From Candidatus Aegiribacteria sp. (GTDB taxonomy: Bacteria; Fermentibacterota; Fermentibacteria; Fermentibacterales; JCC-6), in assembly GCA_023138735.1 (NCBI GenBank), contig JAGLOY010000100.1, forward strand, positions 1-42,015: a stretch of 42,015 nt of DNA, given 5' to 3'. Below are positions 9,811 through 25,343 of the stretch, in pieces. The notes below the pieces were generated by a model that saw only the letters and a list, made by a program, of their open reading frames with translations, was not told where the DNA came from and ran no database searches. The translations under genes and the position numbers were made by a program. Position 1 is the first letter of the stretch. Each line of letters begins with the position of its first letter.

Positions 9811-10773
9811 GTGAACAAAAGAATATCCGATATCGGGGAGAGGGGGCTGATTCGCAGGCTTCGTGATAAGTTCCCTTCTCTTCACTCTATAGGGGATGAT
9901 TGCGCTATACTGCCGCGAATTCAGTGCCCAGTTGTCACCACTGACAGTTATTTCGAAGGTACGCATTTTCATAGATGGTGGGCTCCTCCGAGAATTATTG
10001 GAAGACGTCTGCTGGAAGCCGCGCTCTCTGATATTGCGGCTATGGGTGCTACGGCTCAATGGGTATTTGCGGCACTATCCATCGACCCTGGCATAGGAGT
10101 GCACTGGATAGAGGGCTTCTATCAGGGACTGACCGAACGGGAGGATGTAGTCCTTGCGGGTGGTGAAACGGTAAAGGGAGATCGTCTGGGGATAACTCTC
10201 ACCATTATAGGCGATGGCCAGGAGCGGGATACGATCCTCAGAAGATCATCCCTTCATCCAGGTGATCAGCTCTGGATAAGCGGTCTTCTTGGTCGAGCCC
10301 TGAATGCTCCTTCCAAACTTGAGAAGGTGGGCGGGTTGTTCGGGAAGGATCTTCATTCGCGTTCCGGGCAGCTCTCCGGTGAAGAGCTTGAGCAGTTGAG
10401 AGCCTTTCTACAGCCAAGAGCGGAGCTGGAGCTGGGAATTAAACTCAGAAAAATGGGTGTTCGCTGTGCGATAGATATATCAGATGGACTATTTTCTGAA
10501 GCAGCACACCTTTCAACTGAGAGCTCTGTGGATACGGTACTTGAGATTGATGAAACCCTGTTCTTCGACTCAGTGAAGGACACACCACTGGCCGCATCTG
10601 CTGCGGGAGAGGATTATGTCCTGCTGTTCGGGGCGCCCGGAAGCCTCGATTTTTCATCAGTTGGATGTTCGAAAATCGGCCGTGCAGAGACAGGAAATGG
10701 AGAAATGACTATATTTCTGAACGGAGAGAGAGTAAGCATTGACGCAGAAGGATATGATCATCTGGGGGTTTGA
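9811..10773 (+). CDS. thiL: Thiamine-monophosphate kinase
   Basis: 320-aa kinase of the PurM/ThiL superfamily that phosphorylates thiamine monophosphate to the diphosphate cofactor. Recognisable blocks are SIGDDCAIL, TTDSYFEGTHF, the LLEAALSDIAAMGA nucleotide segment, LAGGETVKG, AIDISDGLFSE and AAGEDYVLLFG. The start is GTG at 9811, only 6 bp after mtnP, and the stop overlaps the region just before the DUF4342 start, so the three genes are probably one transcript. The length is normal and all main motifs are intact. Confidence 0.95.
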   Translation: MNKRISDIGERGLIRRLRDKFPSLHSIGDDCAILPRIQCPVVTTDSYFEGTHFHRWWAPPRIIGRRLLEAALSDIAAMGATAQWVFAALSIDPGIGVHWIEGFYQGLTEREDVVLAGGETVKGDRLGITLTIIGDGQERDTILRRSSLHPGDQLWISGLLGRALNAPSKLEKVGGLFGKDLHSRSGQLSGEELEQLRAFLQPRAELELGIKLRKMGVRCAIDISDGLFSEAAHLSTESSVDTVLEIDETLFFDSVKDTPLAASAAGEDYVLLFGAPGSLDFSSVGCSKIGRAETGNGEMTIFLNGERVSIDAEGYDHLGV

Positions 10774-14248: not shown

Positions 14249-16510
14249 CTAGCGCTTCTTCTGCAGAAGTAGAAGGATCTTTTCATTTGTAAAAGGAGCG
14301 GAATAGATCGGAGGAATCTCCGGGTCGCATGCCCGGATAGCTTCAAGAATCGCGAAATAGGTTCCAATCCCGTACATGAACGGTGGTTCACCCACGGCTT
14401 TGGAATTGTAAATCCCGACGTTTTCTGAATGGCATTCCAGGAATTCTATATCCACTTCTCCCGGAGTGAAGTGAATATCGGGGATCTTGTACGTTGCAAG
14501 GGAATCCGACAGAAGAGCGTCTGTCTCCGGATGGTATTTCAGCTCTTCCAGTGTGACCCATCCTATCCCCTGAAGAAGCCCTCCTTCAACCTGCCCTCTG
14601 TCAACAAGGGGATTGATGCTCTCTCCGCAATCGTGAACGATCTTGACGGAATCCACCGAGAAAATGCCCCTCAGTCTGTCAAGAGTTATTTCGGTAACAG
14701 CTGTTCCCGCTACATGGTATGAAAATGGTCTGCCTTTCTCGGAAGATTTGTTGAAATGCAGTCCCGGTGTTGCATAATGGGCCTGGGACGATAGGTTCAC
14801 TCTTGCAAGATATGCCAGGCCGACAAGCTTATTCCACTCAAGGTGGGTCTTCTTTCCGTTGATCGTGATTTTTTCGTGTATCAGATCAATCCGGCTGTCC
14901 GGATTTGCCCCGAGGTGTTTTCCGGCATAAATCAGAAGACGCTTCAGAATATTGCTGCAGGCTATTCTTACAGCGTTTCCATTCATGTCCGCAGCTGAGC
15001 TCGCTGCAGTTGGAGAAGTATTGGCTGACCTTGTTGTGTTTGTCGATTCCACTTTGATCCTGAAGAGATCGATCCCGAAGGTTCTAGCCGCTACCTGGGC
15101 GATCTTCGAATTGACTCCCTGTCCCATTTCAACAGCTCCGGTGCTTATTCCGACGCTGCCATCGGTATACACATGAACGAGAGCATTGGCCTGATTCATG
15201 GATATATGAGTGAAGGAAATACCGAAACAGACCGGCATGAATGAAATGCCCTTCCTGAACATGACATTACTACTGTTGAAGTCTTTGATCCTTCCATCAT
15301 CATTTTCAGACCGGTACATTTCCAGCGCTTTCCTCCAGGATCTTCTTATCTCGTTTCCCTCGTACTGCATACCGAAGGGGAACATGTCACCTTTTTTCAG
15401 AAGATTTTTTTCCTGTATCTCAAGAGGACTGATCCCCAGTTCAAGCGAGGCGCTGTAAATTGCTGACTCTAAAACGTACATGGCCTGCGGCGCCCCGAAG
15501 CCCCTGAAAGCCGTGTTGGGCGGAAGATTAGTTCTGCAGGAAACACCTGTAGCTTGTACATTGGGGATGAAATAAGCGTTTGTTGAATGAAACAGTGTCC
15601 GTTCAAGGATAGCCGTTGAAAGGTCGGATGCCGCCCCTCCGTTCTGGTAGTAAGTAACCTCCCATGCAATCATCGTACCGTCATTTGTAAGGCCCAGCTT
15701 GAAATCGGAACTGTAAGGATGCCTTTTGCCGGTCCATGTCATATCTTCATTCCTGTTAAGCACGAGTTTCACAGGTTTGCCTGTTAGCTGTACTCCCAGT
15801 GCCGCCATTACAGCCCAGGGTGTTGCCTGGTCCTCCTTGCCTCCGAAAGCACCTCCCAGCCTTCCCACATTGACCTCTATCTTGCTCATCGGCAGCTTGA
15901 GAACTCTTGCGGCAACCCTCTGTACGAAAGTGGGTCCCTGGGTTCCGGAGGATATCCTGATACAGTCGTTTTCCATCGGAACTGCGAAAGCAGCCTGGGT
16001 TTCAAGGTACAGGTGTTCCTGCCCTCCCGAATCAGCGCGACCGGAAACTATGCAGTCGCATCTATTCCATGACTCGGATGTGTTCCCCATGGAAAAAGTT
16101 CTCGGTGGCGCTAGAAGCATTCCCTTCTCGAATGCTTGTCTCGGATCCACGACCGATGGCAATTCTCTGGTTTCCAGCTTTATCATCTTAACTGCTGCTC
16201 TAGCCTTCTCCGGCGTATCCGCCAGCACTACCGCCACGGGCTGTCCGATGAAAAGCAGCTCCTTATCTGCCAGAAGCAGCTCGTCCTTGTTGATACTTCC
16301 TATCTGGTTCTTTCCAGGGATGTCTTCCGCTGTAAAGACCGTTTCAACACCCGGCATCTCTAATGCTTCAGCGGTCTCCAGCTTCTCTATCACACCATGT
16401 GAGACTGGAGAAACCAGTACTGCAGCATGGAGGAGGTCTGCTGGAAGCTTGAAGTCGTCTACGAACAGGGAGGTGCCCCTTACATGCAGCAGCGCGTCCA
16501 GATGCTTCAC
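14249..16510 (-). CDS. xdhB: Xanthine dehydrogenase, molybdopterin-binding subunit
   Basis: 753-aa molybdenum hydroxylase large subunit. Key elements are GRLGGAFGGKED (with the Glu that binds purine in xanthine oxidoreductases), PPNTAFRGFGAPQ (with the substrate Arg), GAVEMGQGVNSK and the catalytic Glu in KAVGEPPFMYG. Presence of both the GGKE Glu and the AFRGFG Arg favours xanthine/hypoxanthine over aldehyde or CO as substrate. The length is close to bacterial XdhB (~750-780). It overlaps xdhA by 4 bp (ATGA), so the two are co-translated. The chaperone XdhC and Mo-cofactor genes are not in the window. Confidence 0.93.
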   Translation of the reverse strand: MKHLDALLHVRGTSLFVDDFKLPADLLHAAVLVSPVSHGVIEKLETAEALEMPGVETVFTAEDIPGKNQIGSINKDELLLADKELLFIGQPVAVVLADTPEKARAAVKMIKLETRELPSVVDPRQAFEKGMLLAPPRTFSMGNTSESWNRCDCIVSGRADSGGQEHLYLETQAAFAVPMENDCIRISSGTQGPTFVQRVAARVLKLPMSKIEVNVGRLGGAFGGKEDQATPWAVMAALGVQLTGKPVKLVLNRNEDMTWTGKRHPYSSDFKLGLTNDGTMIAWEVTYYQNGGAASDLSTAILERTLFHSTNAYFIPNVQATGVSCRTNLPPNTAFRGFGAPQAMYVLESAIYSASLELGISPLEIQEKNLLKKGDMFPFGMQYEGNEIRRSWRKALEMYRSENDDGRIKDFNSSNVMFRKGISFMPVCFGISFTHISMNQANALVHVYTDGSVGISTGAVEMGQGVNSKIAQVAARTFGIDLFRIKVESTNTTRSANTSPTAASSAADMNGNAVRIACSNILKRLLIYAGKHLGANPDSRIDLIHEKITINGKKTHLEWNKLVGLAYLARVNLSSQAHYATPGLHFNKSSEKGRPFSYHVAGTAVTEITLDRLRGIFSVDSVKIVHDCGESINPLVDRGQVEGGLLQGIGWVTLEELKYHPETDALLSDSLATYKIPDIHFTPGEVDIEFLECHSENVGIYNSKAVGEPPFMYGIGTYFAILEAIRACDPEIPPIYSAPFTNEKILLLLQKKR

Positions 16511-17937
16511 AGCAGTAGCCCCGCATCGATCTGTCGGGGGAATAGCTCAACAAAATGGGCGGCTATAAGTTTCCCGAGAAGGAGCTTCTTGTACTCAGCA
16601 GACCCGCGTACATCATCGATCGGACTTACTTCACTGCGGGCAGTACGGACTGCGAGTTGAGCGGTATCCGTGGAGATACTCATGCCGCTCAGGAGTGCAG
16701 AAGTTCTTCCCAGGTAAAGGGGAACGGGTGCAACGCCTCCCGCGGAGATATCAGCTTTTTCGATCCTGCCGCCGTTCACCCTGAACGCGGCAGCTGTATT
16801 AACGGAAGCAATATCGAGATGCTGCCTCATCGCGACCTTCTCAAAATTAATAAAGGTATCGGAATCGGGTGCAATGTACTCGAGGCTTTCCAGTAATTCA
16901 CCGGGAGAGAGGTCAAGTACTTTGTAACCTCTGAAGAAATCTTTCAGCTGTACTTCTCTGTAATCGGAACCGTTTGATATTCTCAGTTTCGCGTCCAGTG
17001 CAAGGAAGATAATGGTGAGGTCGCCTATGGGAGAGGCGTTTACGATATTACCTCCCACAGTTGCTCTATTGCGAACCTGGGCGGAGGCGACAAGATGAAG
17101 GGATCGTGCAAGATTACCTGAGTCACTGAATACTCCTGAATCGATGATATCACGCACGGTTGCCCCTGCTCCGATAAGAATCCTGTTCTCCAGGACAGTT
17201 ATTTCCTTCATTCCCTTTTTTCGGGAAAGAAATCTCAGTTCACTATTCCTGAGGTCCTCAGCTCTTACGGCGAAAAGGTCGGTTCCACCTGCTACCGTTA
17301 CAGTATTTCTCGAAACGCTCTTTTCGGATGTATCTGGTTCGCCCGTACCCATAGTCTTCAGAGTTTCTTCAATTCCGAGGAAGTAGGGGGGCAGTATCTC
17401 TTTTTCAACAAGCCATTCAAGATGTTCTCGTGAAGTGCAGCGTTCGGCGGGTGAATGTCCAATCAATCCGGATATTGTTTTCGCGGATTTATTAATGGAA
17501 ACGTAACCAGTGCATCTGCAGATGTTCCCTGCGAGGGAATCTGCTGCCCCCGTAACGTCAGGATCGACTCTTCCAAGAAGGTAGCCTGTAAGGGATATGA
17601 TGATGCCGGGCGTACAGAAACCGCACTGAGAAGCGCCTTCGTCCACAAATACCTGTTGAAGAGAGGAGAGTCCTTCTTCCGGATTAACTCCTTCGATAGT
17701 TACAAGATGCCTGCCGTGGAGTTCACCAACCGGAAGAATACAGGAATTCACAGCCATGTACTTAATCCCATGCGGAAGCAGTGTTCCCAGCAGCACAGTA
17801 CAGGCGCCGCAGTCACCTTCTTTGCAGCCTTCCCTTGTTCCGCTCAGCCCTGCTTCCGCGCGAAGCAGATCAAGGGTAACCGCTCCTGGTGGAAGCCCGG
17901 TAATGTATTTCTTATCGTTTAGAATGAAAGATATCAT
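16507..17937 (-). CDS. xdhA: Xanthine dehydrogenase, fused [2Fe-2S]/FAD subunit
   Basis: 476-aa subunit that passes electrons from the Mo site to NAD+. The plant-type cluster ligands are Cys38, Cys43 and Cys46 (GCKEGDCGACTV) plus the NSC Cys. The second cluster is QCGFCTPG and ICRCTGY. The FAD domain follows, with VAGGTDLF and the AQVRNRATVGGNIVNASPIGD block. Fusion of FeS and FAD domains, with a separate Mo subunit, is the Rhodobacter XdhAB arrangement. It is the first gene of the pair, with GGGGAAAG before the ATG. Confidence 0.93.
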   Translation of the reverse strand: MISFILNDKKYITGLPPGAVTLDLLRAEAGLSGTREGCKEGDCGACTVLLGTLLPHGIKYMAVNSCILPVGELHGRHLVTIEGVNPEEGLSSLQQVFVDEGASQCGFCTPGIIISLTGYLLGRVDPDVTGAADSLAGNICRCTGYVSINKSAKTISGLIGHSPAERCTSREHLEWLVEKEILPPYFLGIEETLKTMGTGEPDTSEKSVSRNTVTVAGGTDLFAVRAEDLRNSELRFLSRKKGMKEITVLENRILIGAGATVRDIIDSGVFSDSGNLARSLHLVASAQVRNRATVGGNIVNASPIGDLTIIFLALDAKLRISNGSDYREVQLKDFFRGYKVLDLSPGELLESLEYIAPDSDTFINFEKVAMRQHLDIASVNTAAAFRVNGGRIEKADISAGGVAPVPLYLGRTSALLSGMSISTDTAQLAVRTARSEVSPIDDVRGSAEYKKLLLGKLIAAHFVELFPRQIDAGLLL

Positions 17938-21891: not shown

Positions 21892-22974
21892 TCAGTTAAC
21901 AATGATCAGCTTATCAGAATCCTGATGCTCGGTTCCCTGCGGTTCCGTGGCCAGGTAGAGTCGTATCTGCCCATAAAAATCACCTGAGATAATATCCATG
22001 CGGCCGTCATCGTTCCAGTCGTACAGGCAGATGTTGTGATGCCAGTGGTAAATAGGCTCACCGTCGCTCTCGAGCTGTATGCCCCCTTCGAAAACTGGAT
22101 TCTGGTTTGTGCCCACATTCCTGTAGAAGTAAACCCAGCCACAGTTTGGTCCGTTGTCATACCCCTCACTGGAGGCGGGAAAGTGAACTTCGTTTTGCTG
22201 CGGTGCATTGGAAAAGGGTCCCGTATCACAGGCGGCCAACACCAGATCATCAATCCCGTCACCGTCCATGTCGCCAACTTGAGGGCCCGAGCGCCATTTC
22301 TGGATGTAAGTCCCGCTGCTGGTCAGACCTTGATAACTGTTGAACTGAGGGTTCCCGGCAGTTCCCTGGTTCTGATACAACCGAACACTGCCGCCGTCCA
22401 TGAACTCCCTGCCGACAAGCAGGTCCTGCAAACCGTCACCATTCCAGTCATGCACTGCCGGACACGATATGAAGCCGACATCTATCTGTGTGCCGTTGCA
22501 TTGTATATGCGGCATCTCCATAAGGCTGCCATCGCTAAGTCTTTCGTAATAGAATACATACCCGCAGCCGCTTCCAAAGATCAGATCATTGCGGCCGTCA
22601 TTATTCCAATCCACAACCTGCGGATTCGGTGTAGCTGCATGTCCTCAAGTACTGTAAATCTCAATGGGTTCATTATTCGCTTCAAGGTAACTGTAATCCT
22701 CAAAAATGGGATTACCTGTCTCGCCCTGGTTCAGGTAGAGTCTGAAGTGTCCGTAACACGGATCACCCATCCCGTAGGGATCCGGGTTCTGATTAACGTC
22801 AAAGCCCTCCGAAATAATAAGATCCGCCAACCCATCCCCGTTCCAATCAGCCATGCATGGAGAAGCAAGGTTCTCTACTACAATGCCCCCGCCAATATCT
22901 ACCGGTGGTTCAAATACGGGTTGGGCCGACAAAGTTGTAGCCAGCACAAGTAATGACACAGGAAGATATTTCAA
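21892..22974 (-). CDS. Putative selenoprotein: secreted FG-GAP/VCBS repeat protein 1 (in-frame TGA at 22647-22645)
   Basis: The frame runs from a TTG start at 22974 (AAGGAGAG upstream) through one in-frame TGA to a TGA stop at 21892, giving 360 residues if the internal TGA is selenocysteine (position 110). A signal peptide (KYLPVSLLVLATTLSA) is followed by about five FG-GAP-type repeats with Ca-binding DWNGDG loops, typical of beta-propellers. The TGA falls in an extra loop before a repeat (IYST-U-GHAATPNPQVVDW). The paralog at 23321 has TGA at the same aligned position. A hairpin with a GGT loop lies 19-37 nt downstream. Two other repeats carry Cys at comparable sites (SPCMADW, SCPAVHDW). 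Unlike the paralog, it lacks the C-terminal sorting-type domain. The alternative is a nonsense-broken gene. Confidence 0.72.
22608..22626 (-). promoter_or_regulatory. Candidate bacterial SECIS hairpin for FG-GAP protein 1
   Basis: Minus-strand reading: AATCCGCA, GGT, TGTGGATT. This is an 8-bp stem with one G-U pair closing a GGT loop. The loop begins 27 nt after the TGA at 22647-22645. Bacterial SECIS elements put a stem-loop with a G in the first loop positions about 16-37 nt after the UGA, and the E. coli fdhF loop also presents CAGGU. Confidence 0.65.
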
Positions 22975-23132
22975 AATGTTCTCTCCTTCTACCCTTTTGT
23001 TTTGTTAACGATTACTATTCGTATTATCCGCCCGGTGTGGTTGCTTCTCTTCTATTAAGTTTATTCATCTGCATTTGTTCCCGAGAAAGTAGGAGTGTTT
23101 CTTATACGGTCGTATCTCCTGCATGAAATTTC

Positions 23133-23160
23133 AATATAGCTGGTAATTCTGATCTGTCAA
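23133..23160 (-). promoter_or_regulatory. Promoter for FG-GAP protein 1; rest of the 22975-23320 gap
   Basis: On the minus strand, TTGACA (23160-23155) and TATATT (23138-23133) are 16 bases apart, giving a leader of roughly 150 nt to the TTG start at 22974. The divergent gap of about 346 bases holds no gene I can support. A plus-strand promoter for 23321 is less clear. The strong ribosome site AGGGAGG is just before 23321. Confidence 0.5.
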
Positions 23161-23320
23161 AGTTTTGCAGGATTCCTGAGAGTAAGAAGGCTGCCTCCGG
23201 AAACCCAATAATCCAGTGTTTCTGGAAACCACTCCGGAAACCTTGTCGCTTGAATGATTTTCCATTATTGTACCGTTATCATCGGTATTACATGATTGTT
23301 CCGTTCTCCAGGGAGGTATT

Positions 23321-24541
23321 ATGAGAGTATACTTATTTTTAGTGCTGTCTATCTGCCTTGCGGCTGCAGCGGCCACACCGGATTACCAGCCACCCTTCAA
23401 CGTAATGGCAAACGGTGCGCAGATTGAATTGTCCGTAGGACACGCGAATCCTCTTATTACCGATTGGAATGGAGATGGTCTGAAGGATCTTATCCTGGGC
23501 CAGTATTCTTCAGGAAAGCTTCGTTACTACGAGAACAACGATACGAACGATTCTCCCATGTTCGGGAATTATACATTCATGCAGGCTGACGGAGTTGATA
23601 TTTCACTCTCATCCGGTTGATGCACGGGAGCGACAAATCCACAGGCTGTGGATTTCAATGGTGATGGACTGGATGATCTGATAGTCGGTGAAAGAGAAGG
23701 ATACGTCAACTACTTCAGACGGCTCGGTGATGGAACACTTACCAGTGAAGGCAGAATTCAGGCGGGAAGCATTGATATTGATGTTGGTACTAACTCCGCC
23801 CCCTTTGTTTTCGACTGGAATAACGATGGACTGCTTGATCTGATCGTTGGCCGCGAATCCACATCAGGCGGAAGTCTCTATCTTTATCTCAATGAGGGAA
23901 CCTCTGGAAATCCGGTGTTCAACAGTTACGCACCTGTTATGAAGGGCTCCTCACCGGTTGCCTGGCCAAGAAGCATTCCACATATGGAGGATATGAACGG
24001 AGACGGGTTGCTGGATCTTCTTGTAGGGGAGGACAACGGGCACACCTATTACCTGGAGAATGTTGGAGCGACAGGAGCGCCTGTATTTGCGACCAGCGCA
24101 GCGATTACAGTAAATGGAACCCCATTTGCCTGGCCAACTGGGGAGACGGATGCCACAGTTTTCGTGAATGACTGGAACGAAGATGGAATTCTGGATATCG
24201 TTCAGGGGAATTATACGGAGTACCTGTTCGTATTCCTGGGAAACGATCCTACAGGCATTGGCAGCCATTCGGAAATACCAGAAGGCGGAGCCTCGCTTAC
24301 CCTTCTATCCAATCCGGTATTTGGTTCGTTAAGATTTACATTTTCATCAGATCAGCCTGTACCTGTTACTGTCAGCCTCTTCAGCATGGACGGAAGAATG
24401 GTGAACAGGTGGGACCTGGGTACGATCAACGGTGTTACGGATCACACTCACGCCGTTTCTGAACTGCCCACCGGCGTTTATACCATGGTTTCCTCTGTGG
24501 ATGGATATATCTCATGTTACCCGATAGTCATTATTCGATAG
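23321..24541 (+). CDS. Putative selenoprotein: secreted FG-GAP/VCBS repeat protein 2 (in-frame TGA at 23618-23620)
   Basis: Read through the TGA, the gene encodes 406 residues with selenocysteine at position 100. Order of parts: signal peptide (ends LAAAAA), FG-GAP/VCBS repeats with DWNGDGLKDLILG-type loops, and a C-terminal ~80-residue T9SS/FlgD-like domain (NPVFGSLRFTF, VSLFSMDGRMV, LPTGVYTM) used for secretion or surface attachment in FCB bacteria. The TGA sits in an insertion between LSSG and NPQAVDF and is directly followed by Cys (U-C pair), a redox-type arrangement. Downstream sequence after the TGA lacks its own start or ribosome site, while repeats on both sides are intact. A 9-bp SECIS-like hairpin follows. 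The ATG has AGGGAGG upstream. It is probably in one operon with the gene at 24561. Confidence 0.78.
23635..23655 (+). promoter_or_regulatory. Candidate bacterial SECIS hairpin for FG-GAP protein 2
   Basis: AAATCCACA, GGC, TGTGGATTT is a perfect 9-bp stem closing a GGC loop. The stem starts 15 nt and the loop 24 nt after the in-frame TGA at 23618-23620. Loop and spacing fit the bacterial SECIS consensus. Confidence 0.7.
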
Positions 24542-24560
24542 AAACAGAGAAGGGGGTTTT

Positions 24561-25343
24561 ATGAAAATTGCTGTTACAATTATGTCTCTGTTCCTGTTCG
24601 CAGGCATCTGCATGGCAGATTATCAGATAGTCGCCACGCTCGATGCTCCGGACACGAACATATCAGGGCTTGGCTTCGGAAATGGGTCATTGTGGGCCGT
24701 GGATGGGGTCACGGAGTACGCCTACCAGGTCGATCCTGTTACCGGCGCTGTTCAGAACTCCTGGTACTGCGAAAACACTACAAAAGTTCCTTCAGGTCTT
24801 ACTTTCGCCAACAACACTGTTTATATCGCCATGGGTACACCTCCTAACCTCACGCTGTCATACTGCTACAGGTACAATACCTCGGGGGTATATCTGGGAC
24901 AGTTCTCTCTGGACTGTTGAGGAAGCGATTTAGACCAGCAGGTTACTGGTCTCGCTACAGGTAACAGTAAGATTTTCGGAGCTGGTGTTGATACTCAGAC
25001 AATGAAGGAAGTTCTCGAGATATACAATTATTCCGGGACCATTCAGACAGGTCCGGAGTTCATGCTTGAGCTCGGAATCGAGTTCTACGACATTGCCTAC
25101 TACAATGGTAACTACTGGTTCGCATGCAACGATGCTGCATTCCCGATTCGAGTTTACAATGGCAGTGGGGGTCTTGTGGAATCCGTGAGCTCGTCGGTTC
25201 TTCCGGCAGCCCACGGTATGACATTCGATGATGATGGTTATCTCTGGGTGAGTAACATGAACACCGATGAGATATACAAGATCGATTTGAACGTAACATC
25301 CCTCGAATCTTCAACCTGGGCATCCATTAAAGCCACTTTCTAG
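24561..25343 (+). CDS. Putative selenoprotein: secreted beta-propeller protein (in-frame TGA at 24918-24920)
   Basis: 260 residues if the in-frame TGA is read as selenocysteine (position 120). A signal peptide (AVTIMSLFLFAGICMA) precedes about five propeller-type repeats: SGLGFGNGSLWAVDG, PSGLTFANNTVYIA, TGLATGNSKIFGAG, YDIAYYNGNYWFACN and HGMTFDDDGYLWVSN. The TGA falls between the second and third repeats, directly after a Cys codon (SLDC-U-GSDLDQQ), giving a vicinal Cys-Sec pair. Both halves are needed for a full propeller, and the next ATG (25002) has lost part of a repeat. A SECIS-like hairpin with a CAGGTT loop follows the TGA. It starts 20 bp after FG-GAP protein 2, with AGGGGG before the ATG, so the two are likely co-transcribed. 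Confidence 0.75.
24932..24952 (+). promoter_or_regulatory. Candidate bacterial SECIS hairpin for the propeller selenoprotein
   Basis: AGACCAG, CAGGTTA, CTGGTCT is a 7-bp perfect stem with a 7-nt loop. An inner A-T pair can reduce the loop to GGT. The loop begins 19 nt and GGT 21 nt after the TGA at 24918-24920. The protein sequence here differs from the FG-GAP pair, so this hairpin is independent evidence. Confidence 0.65.

Follow-up and report, generated by a model that had tools for sequence, protein, structure and literature searches.

Three neighboring genes in a 42,015-nt stretch of Candidatus Aegiribacteria sp. DNA (assembly GCA_023138735.1, contig JAGLOY010000100.1, positions 1 to 42,015; hereafter the window) each contain one in-frame TGA codon, at which selenocysteine (Sec) is very probably inserted. 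The genes represent two undescribed predicted selenoprotein families, built on a fold not earlier associated with Sec: family 1, with FG-GAP/VCBS propellers (genes 1 and 2), and family 2, with an NHL-like propeller (gene 3). The initial annotation, made from the sequence alone, had proposed three neighboring propeller selenoproteins; the three genes stand, but their grouping is refined to these two families, both of which extend far beyond the window. Support for the selenoprotein interpretation as a whole comes from the Sec machinery of the genome, the conserved TGA column, the selenocysteine insertion sequence (SECIS) hairpins, and the use of TGA as an ordinary stop elsewhere.

The internal TGA is the sole stop within open frames of 360, 406, and 260 residues in genes 1, 2, and 3, and all three TGAs were recovered where the initial annotation had put them, in otherwise intact frames; the hairpins claimed downstream of them are real. 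Gene 1 (21892–22974, minus strand; TTG start) has its TGA at 22647–22645, corresponding to residue 110 in a Sec-Gly context and to an alignment column common with the other FG-GAP copies; an 8-bp hairpin, AATCCGCA-GGT-TGTGGATT, lies at 22608–22626 on the same strand, with its GGT loop 26 nt past the TGA. Gene 2 (23321–24541, plus strand) has its TGA at 23618–23620 (residue 100), followed by a 9-bp hairpin, AAATCCACA-GGC-TGTGGATTT, at 23635–23655 (plus strand), with the GGC loop 23 nt past the TGA. Gene 3 (24561–25343, plus strand) has its TGA at 24918–24920 (residue 120) and a 7-bp hairpin, AGACCAG-CAGGTTA-CTGGTCT, at 24932–24952 (plus strand), with the loop about 17–18 nt past the TGA. The TGA columns of genes 2 and 3 are conserved in homologs, and the cysteine neighbors reported for them are correct, i.e., Sec-Cys in gene 2 and Cys-Sec in gene 3. 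Genes 1 and 2 are paralogous (35% identity, E = 2e-63 by BLASTP), and their TGAs share one alignment column. The N-terminus of gene 2 is signal-peptide-like, and its C-terminal domain resembles the sorting tails of the type IX secretion system, although the match to Por_Secre_tail (21.1 bits) falls just below the 23-bit cut-off. The window contains no tRNA gene and no Rfam family at threshold.

Conservation and distribution of the TGA column

Within the genome of origin (G000; a 3.22-Mb draft assembly of 192 contigs, 91% complete), all eight copies of family 1 and all seven copies of family 2 contain exactly one TGA, in one shared column per family, and a pair of FG-GAP and NHL-like genes is also adjacent on a second contig (C168). 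Across the phylum, 95 family 1 matches cover 300 or more model positions, of which 93 have one TGA and two have none, while TAA or TAG occurs in 0 of 95; for family 2, every column-spanning match above 160 bits has the TGA, in 42 of 42 genomes. The column is thus shared by paralogs and orthologs and is not peculiar to this strain. A sequencing error was rejected as the source of the TGAs, given the conservation of the column through the phylum and beyond.

A GTDB genome search with family 1 returned matches in the phylum itself, Candidatus Fermentibacterota (Sabulitectum, Aegiribacteria, and Fermentibacteria), and the TGA column is kept in WOR-3 (Caldifarciminota), Stahlbacteria, a Chitinivibrionales genome (Fibrobacterota), many Planctomycetota, and some Verrucomicrobiota, mostly in the context U-C-x-G...P-Q outside the phylum. 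Alignment of homologs at this column, as proposed in the initial annotation, revealed exchange of TGA for TGC or TGT in family 1: the residues are Cys-Cys in a Phycisphaerae genome (L100) and a Rikenellaceae genome (L124). Other exchanges include Gly-Cys in Limisphaerales-type Verrucomicrobiota and Ser-Cys in another Phycisphaerae genome. In a tandem pair from an Aegiribacteria genome (L051, 6001–8606), the first copy has U-C and the second E-T, so that Sec and Cys were lost jointly, and in the unclassified bacterium PL23a_bin.125 (L061, 31–8038) six tandem family 1 genes each carry one TGA and a SECIS-type hairpin. Cysteine adjoins Sec in >90% of family 1 rows, and Cys-Sec occurs in most family 2 rows; in divergent family 1 copies (L170, L176, L177, and L178) the Sec is shifted by one residue or the order is C-U or U-G-x-C, which suggests that Sec-Cys spacing in family 1 may not be rigid. 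The maximum-likelihood tree of 70 family 1 proteins does not strictly follow phyla; horizontal transfer is not claimed. In six other genomes, family 2 gave tail or partial matches only, all without TGA, and to the extent searched, its sequence distribution seems restricted to the phylum.

If the TGAs were real stops, the genes would be pseudogenes or split genes, and gene callers using translation table 11 would indeed split all three, as had been anticipated. This explanation has a negligible probability, because more than 90 family 1 copies and all strong family 2 copies have TGA, never TAA or TAG, at this position, the part downstream of the TGA stays conserved and coding, and the TGA recurs at the same column in other phyla.

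SECIS-type hairpins

Published rules for bacterial SECIS elements specify an apical loop of 3–9 nt, with a G within its first two positions, at 16–37 nt from the UGA (PMC13188914). These rules were applied to 133 TGA sites in three sets, namely family 1 in the phylum, family 1 in other phyla, and family 2, for which the mean best hairpins were −8.2, −7.4, and −9.6 kcal/mol, respectively, compared with −1.5, −1.3, and −0.8 kcal/mol after synonymous codon re-draws; this null is conservative because the codon frequencies come from the same region. Hairpins of −7.5 kcal/mol or better follow 101 of the 133 family sites. Among the TGAs that serve as ordinary stops of long open reading frames (ORFs), just 13 of 102 have one, and some of those 13 are probably terminators.

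The initial annotation had called for a folding and covariation check, and the hairpins both conform to the published rules and show compensatory changes. The family 1 hairpin is encoded in the codons of N-P-Q-(A/V)-V-D, as AATCCACA-GG(C/T)-TGTGGATT; in distant planctomycetes it is kept while the middle pair changes from AU to GC or CG, with nine both-sided changes. Family 2 stems occur as GACCAG/CTGGTC, GACCGG/CCGGTC, and GACCTG/CAGGTC. All three alignments exceeded 500 of 500 shuffles in covariation score and in cells paired, and slid controls paired at 21–46% versus 77–97% for the true hairpins; however, relatedness inflates the shuffle test, and more weight is therefore placed on the both-sided changes and the synonymous null.

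Selenocysteine machinery

The search for selA, selB, selD, and selC suggested by the initial annotation was successful for the three protein-coding genes, which scored 514, 328, and 318 bits in the genome of origin, all exceeding curated cut-offs; the tRNA gene (tRNA-Sec) was not recovered from the assembly, which is incomplete. selA and selB are adjacent on one contig, and selD lies on another. This selD (L017, contig C162) itself has an in-frame TGA, in the active-site motif GPCAGUAGK, and served as an internal control; Sec-type SelD, with Sec at this position of the motif, is a recognized selenoprotein family included in a recent inventory (PMC13188914). selA was present in 24 of 24 good-quality genomes of the phylum, and among complete or large records from outside the phylum, it was above cut-off in two of three with the TGA versus zero of three without it.

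Several observations weigh against Sec insertion in these genes. One is the missing tRNA-Sec: in the 91%-complete assembly, the sole above-cut-off match to the tRNA-Sec model is a tRNA-Ser (CGA), and the weaker matches are tRNA-Ser, Leu, Lys, Trp, and Gln, none with the anticodon TCA. tRNA-Sec was found at 68–76 bits in 36 of 41 other genomes of the phylum, and the absence is read as an assembly gap because the machinery and more than 12 recoded genes would be senseless without it. In the WOR-3 record CP070834.1 (G042, locus L056), a family 1 TGA coexists with a partial selA match only, possibly due to a frameshift in the assembly. No Cys form of family 2 was found in the phylum, distant TGA-less relatives having Ser, Leu, His, or a gap at the column, so that the case for this family lies entirely in TGA conservation and the SECIS hairpin. 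Finally, for single genes the folding z-scores of the window hairpins in 50-nt segments are modest (−0.66 to −1.85), those of the hairpins by themselves being better (−4.2, −2.75, and −1.6), and the loop of the gene 3 hairpin is larger than the textbook form. The strength of the SECIS evidence, as judged from the alignments, is in conservation over more than 130 homologous sites rather than in the folding energy of any one gene.

Two other regions of the window are of possible interest here. An ORF at 9811–10773 (plus strand) has a weak match to the selD model (28.9 bits) and more likely encodes another kinase of the AIR-synthase fold, such as ThiL. Molybdenum-hydroxylase-type genes occupy 14249–17937 (minus strand), with FAD_binding_5, Fer2_2, and CO_deh_flav_C at 16507–17937; enzymes of this type bear a labile selenium cofactor in some selenium users.

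TGA as an ordinary stop codon

UGA reassignments exist in other bacteria, and the failure to find tRNA-Sec in this assembly would be compatible with a reading of UGA as Trp, Gly, or Cys that needs no selenium, whether leaky or throughout the genome. Such recoding is very improbable; the initial annotation had also judged its genome-wide form unlikely. TGA ends 102 of the 261 ORFs of 250 aa or longer at phylum loci outside the two families (TAA, 79; TAG, 80), and gene 1 holds both uses of the codon, one internal with a hairpin, the other its terminator (21894–21892), behind which there is no SECIS-like hairpin. More generally, the rule-conforming hairpin is conserved behind the internal TGAs and not behind ordinary stops. 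The genes selA, selB, and selD are all intact, and of the records from outside the phylum compared above, selA exceeds its cut-off in two of the three with the TGA and in none of the three without it. Stops flanked by coding sequence were sought by coding score in about 390 kb of the genome, at a threshold that misses some true cases (gene 1 and selD). Eight TGAs emerged that have hairpins of −5.7 or better, every one of them in family 1 or family 2; the other stops recovered (TGA, TAA, and TAG) seem to mark gene boundaries.

Predicted fold and position of the selenocysteine

Known FG-GAP propellers include those of integrins and lectins. Genes 1 and 2 matched PF13517 at 77.9 and 90.6 bits (curated cut-off 26.9), while gene 3 matched no Pfam family above cut-off, its sole match being DUF6923, just below cut-off. 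AlphaFold models of genes 2 and 3 were confident (pLDDT 93 and 87). The gene 2 model shows a propeller, its calcium loops integrin-like, together with a C-terminal beta domain, and profile comparison places it closest, among solved structures, to a secreted esterase, integrin alpha chains, and lectins of the fungal PVL type; the gene 3 model resembles NHL domains and glutaminyl cyclotransferases, with a TM score of about 0.67 to 2faw.

In DSSP strings of the models, Sec 100 of gene 2 falls between strands 81–86 and 105–110, and Sec 120 of gene 3 between strands 111–116 and 126–134. The strand after the Sec, which bears the repeat motif (PQ-VVD-WN-DG in gene 2 and VTGLA in gene 3), was taken as the innermost strand of its blade; on these models, the Sec of both propeller types would lie where the chain passes from a blade's outer strand into the inner strand of the following blade, in a connector that, by general propeller topology, would be on the channel-mouth face. 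Ligand binding at this channel mouth is common among propeller proteins.

Proposed mechanism and function

As we envision it, SelA and SelD would supply selenocysteine, which SelB and tRNA-Sec would insert at the single in-frame UGA under the direction of the hairpin immediately behind it. The proteins would leave the cytoplasm through a predicted N-terminal signal peptide, the longer copies carrying a sorting-tail-like C-terminal domain, and would fold into FG-GAP (calcium-motif) or NHL-like beta-propellers, with the Sec, in most cases next to a Cys, at the channel mouth. We consider it somewhat probable that the channel-mouth Sec-Cys pair is an active site, defining a class of extracellular selenoenzymes reached independently in two propeller families. 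The chemistry is more tentative. The pair probably serves one of two functions: extracellular redox chemistry through a reversible selenenylsulfide is plausible, and binding of a soft metal, metalloid, or organometal is a possibility held with less confidence, both grades reflecting the conservation of Cys beside Sec and the occurrence of adjacent Cys-Sec motifs in known selenoproteins, several of which are metal or organometal proteins.

With Sec inserted as proposed, the proteins may still be mainly secreted selenium- or metal-binding carriers and not redox enzymes, which we regard as possible but not probable. Adjacent Cys-Sec motifs recur in CopZ-like proteins, SaoL, HgcA, and MbdU (PMC13188914), genomes encode many paralogs, and no neighboring redox partner was seen in the window; a single Sec per protein, however, is poor for storage. 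Alternatively, the pair may be structural or adhesive on a surface propeller, as integrin alpha chains and fungal PVL-type lectins rank among the best matches in sequence and fold; this is unlikely, since Sec is costly and normally catalytic, and the joint change of UC to ET in the L051 tandem copy looks as if the pair had one dispensable job.

If the proposed active site is correct, the phylum as a whole, and parts of other phyla, would display several extracytoplasmic propellers with a Sec-Cys active site. The findings make a little-known phylum selenoprotein-rich: a single genome has at least 15 propeller copies in addition to SelD. Standard annotation would split well over 100 related genes in the genomes searched. 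Predicted secretion combined with the Sec-Cys pair makes it possible to test whether uncultured bacteria carry out selenium chemistry outside the cell; family 1 is also found in Planctomycetota with selA and may therefore be testable outside the uncultured phylum.

Comparison with known selenoproteins and propellers

The initial annotation knew of no described selenoprotein family of this type, and none was found in the inventory, NCBIfam, or the literature searched. None of the 119 prokaryotic families in the 2026 inventory, which includes those of Haft and Tolstoy (2025), is of the FG-GAP, VCBS, or propeller kind (PMC13188914); the deep-Sep paper likewise lists none, and NCBIfam has no matching selenoprotein model. 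Literature on FG-GAP, VCBS, propellers, or Fermentibacterota together with selenium yielded nothing relevant, this coverage not extending to the contents of table S9 of PMC4807772, where a planctomycete member may figure.

The present proteins share with known bacterial selenoproteins the in-frame UGA, SelA, SelB, and SelD, a bacterial SECIS element of the published type, and a Sec beside Cys, as in several CU-motif families; the inventory proteins with adjacent Cys-Sec are CopZ-like, SaoL, SaoC, HgcA, MbdU, and KCU-star, several of them metal or organometal proteins (PMC13188914). Most characterized selenoproteins are thioredoxin-like, however, whereas these are large secreted propellers with many paralogs. 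The Sec-containing SelD of the same genome likewise has its TGA at an active-site column, but it is a cytoplasmic enzyme of Sec synthesis with a fold unrelated to propellers. Family 1 resembles other FG-GAP/VCBS proteins (PF13517 and PF01839; the integrin alpha propeller and PVL-type lectins) in its 78–91-bit matches, DxDGDGxxD calcium-type loops, and modeled propeller, and differs from them in the Sec, usually Sec-Cys, in one blade connector and in the coding-region SECIS over NPQ-(V/A)-V-D. Family 2 has the predicted fold of NHL/SMP-30-like propellers (TRIM NHL, papaya glutaminyl cyclotransferase, and virginiamycin B lyase), as reflected in the TM score to 2faw; however, identity is only about 16%, and Cys-Sec is present in the connector ahead of the VTGLA strand.

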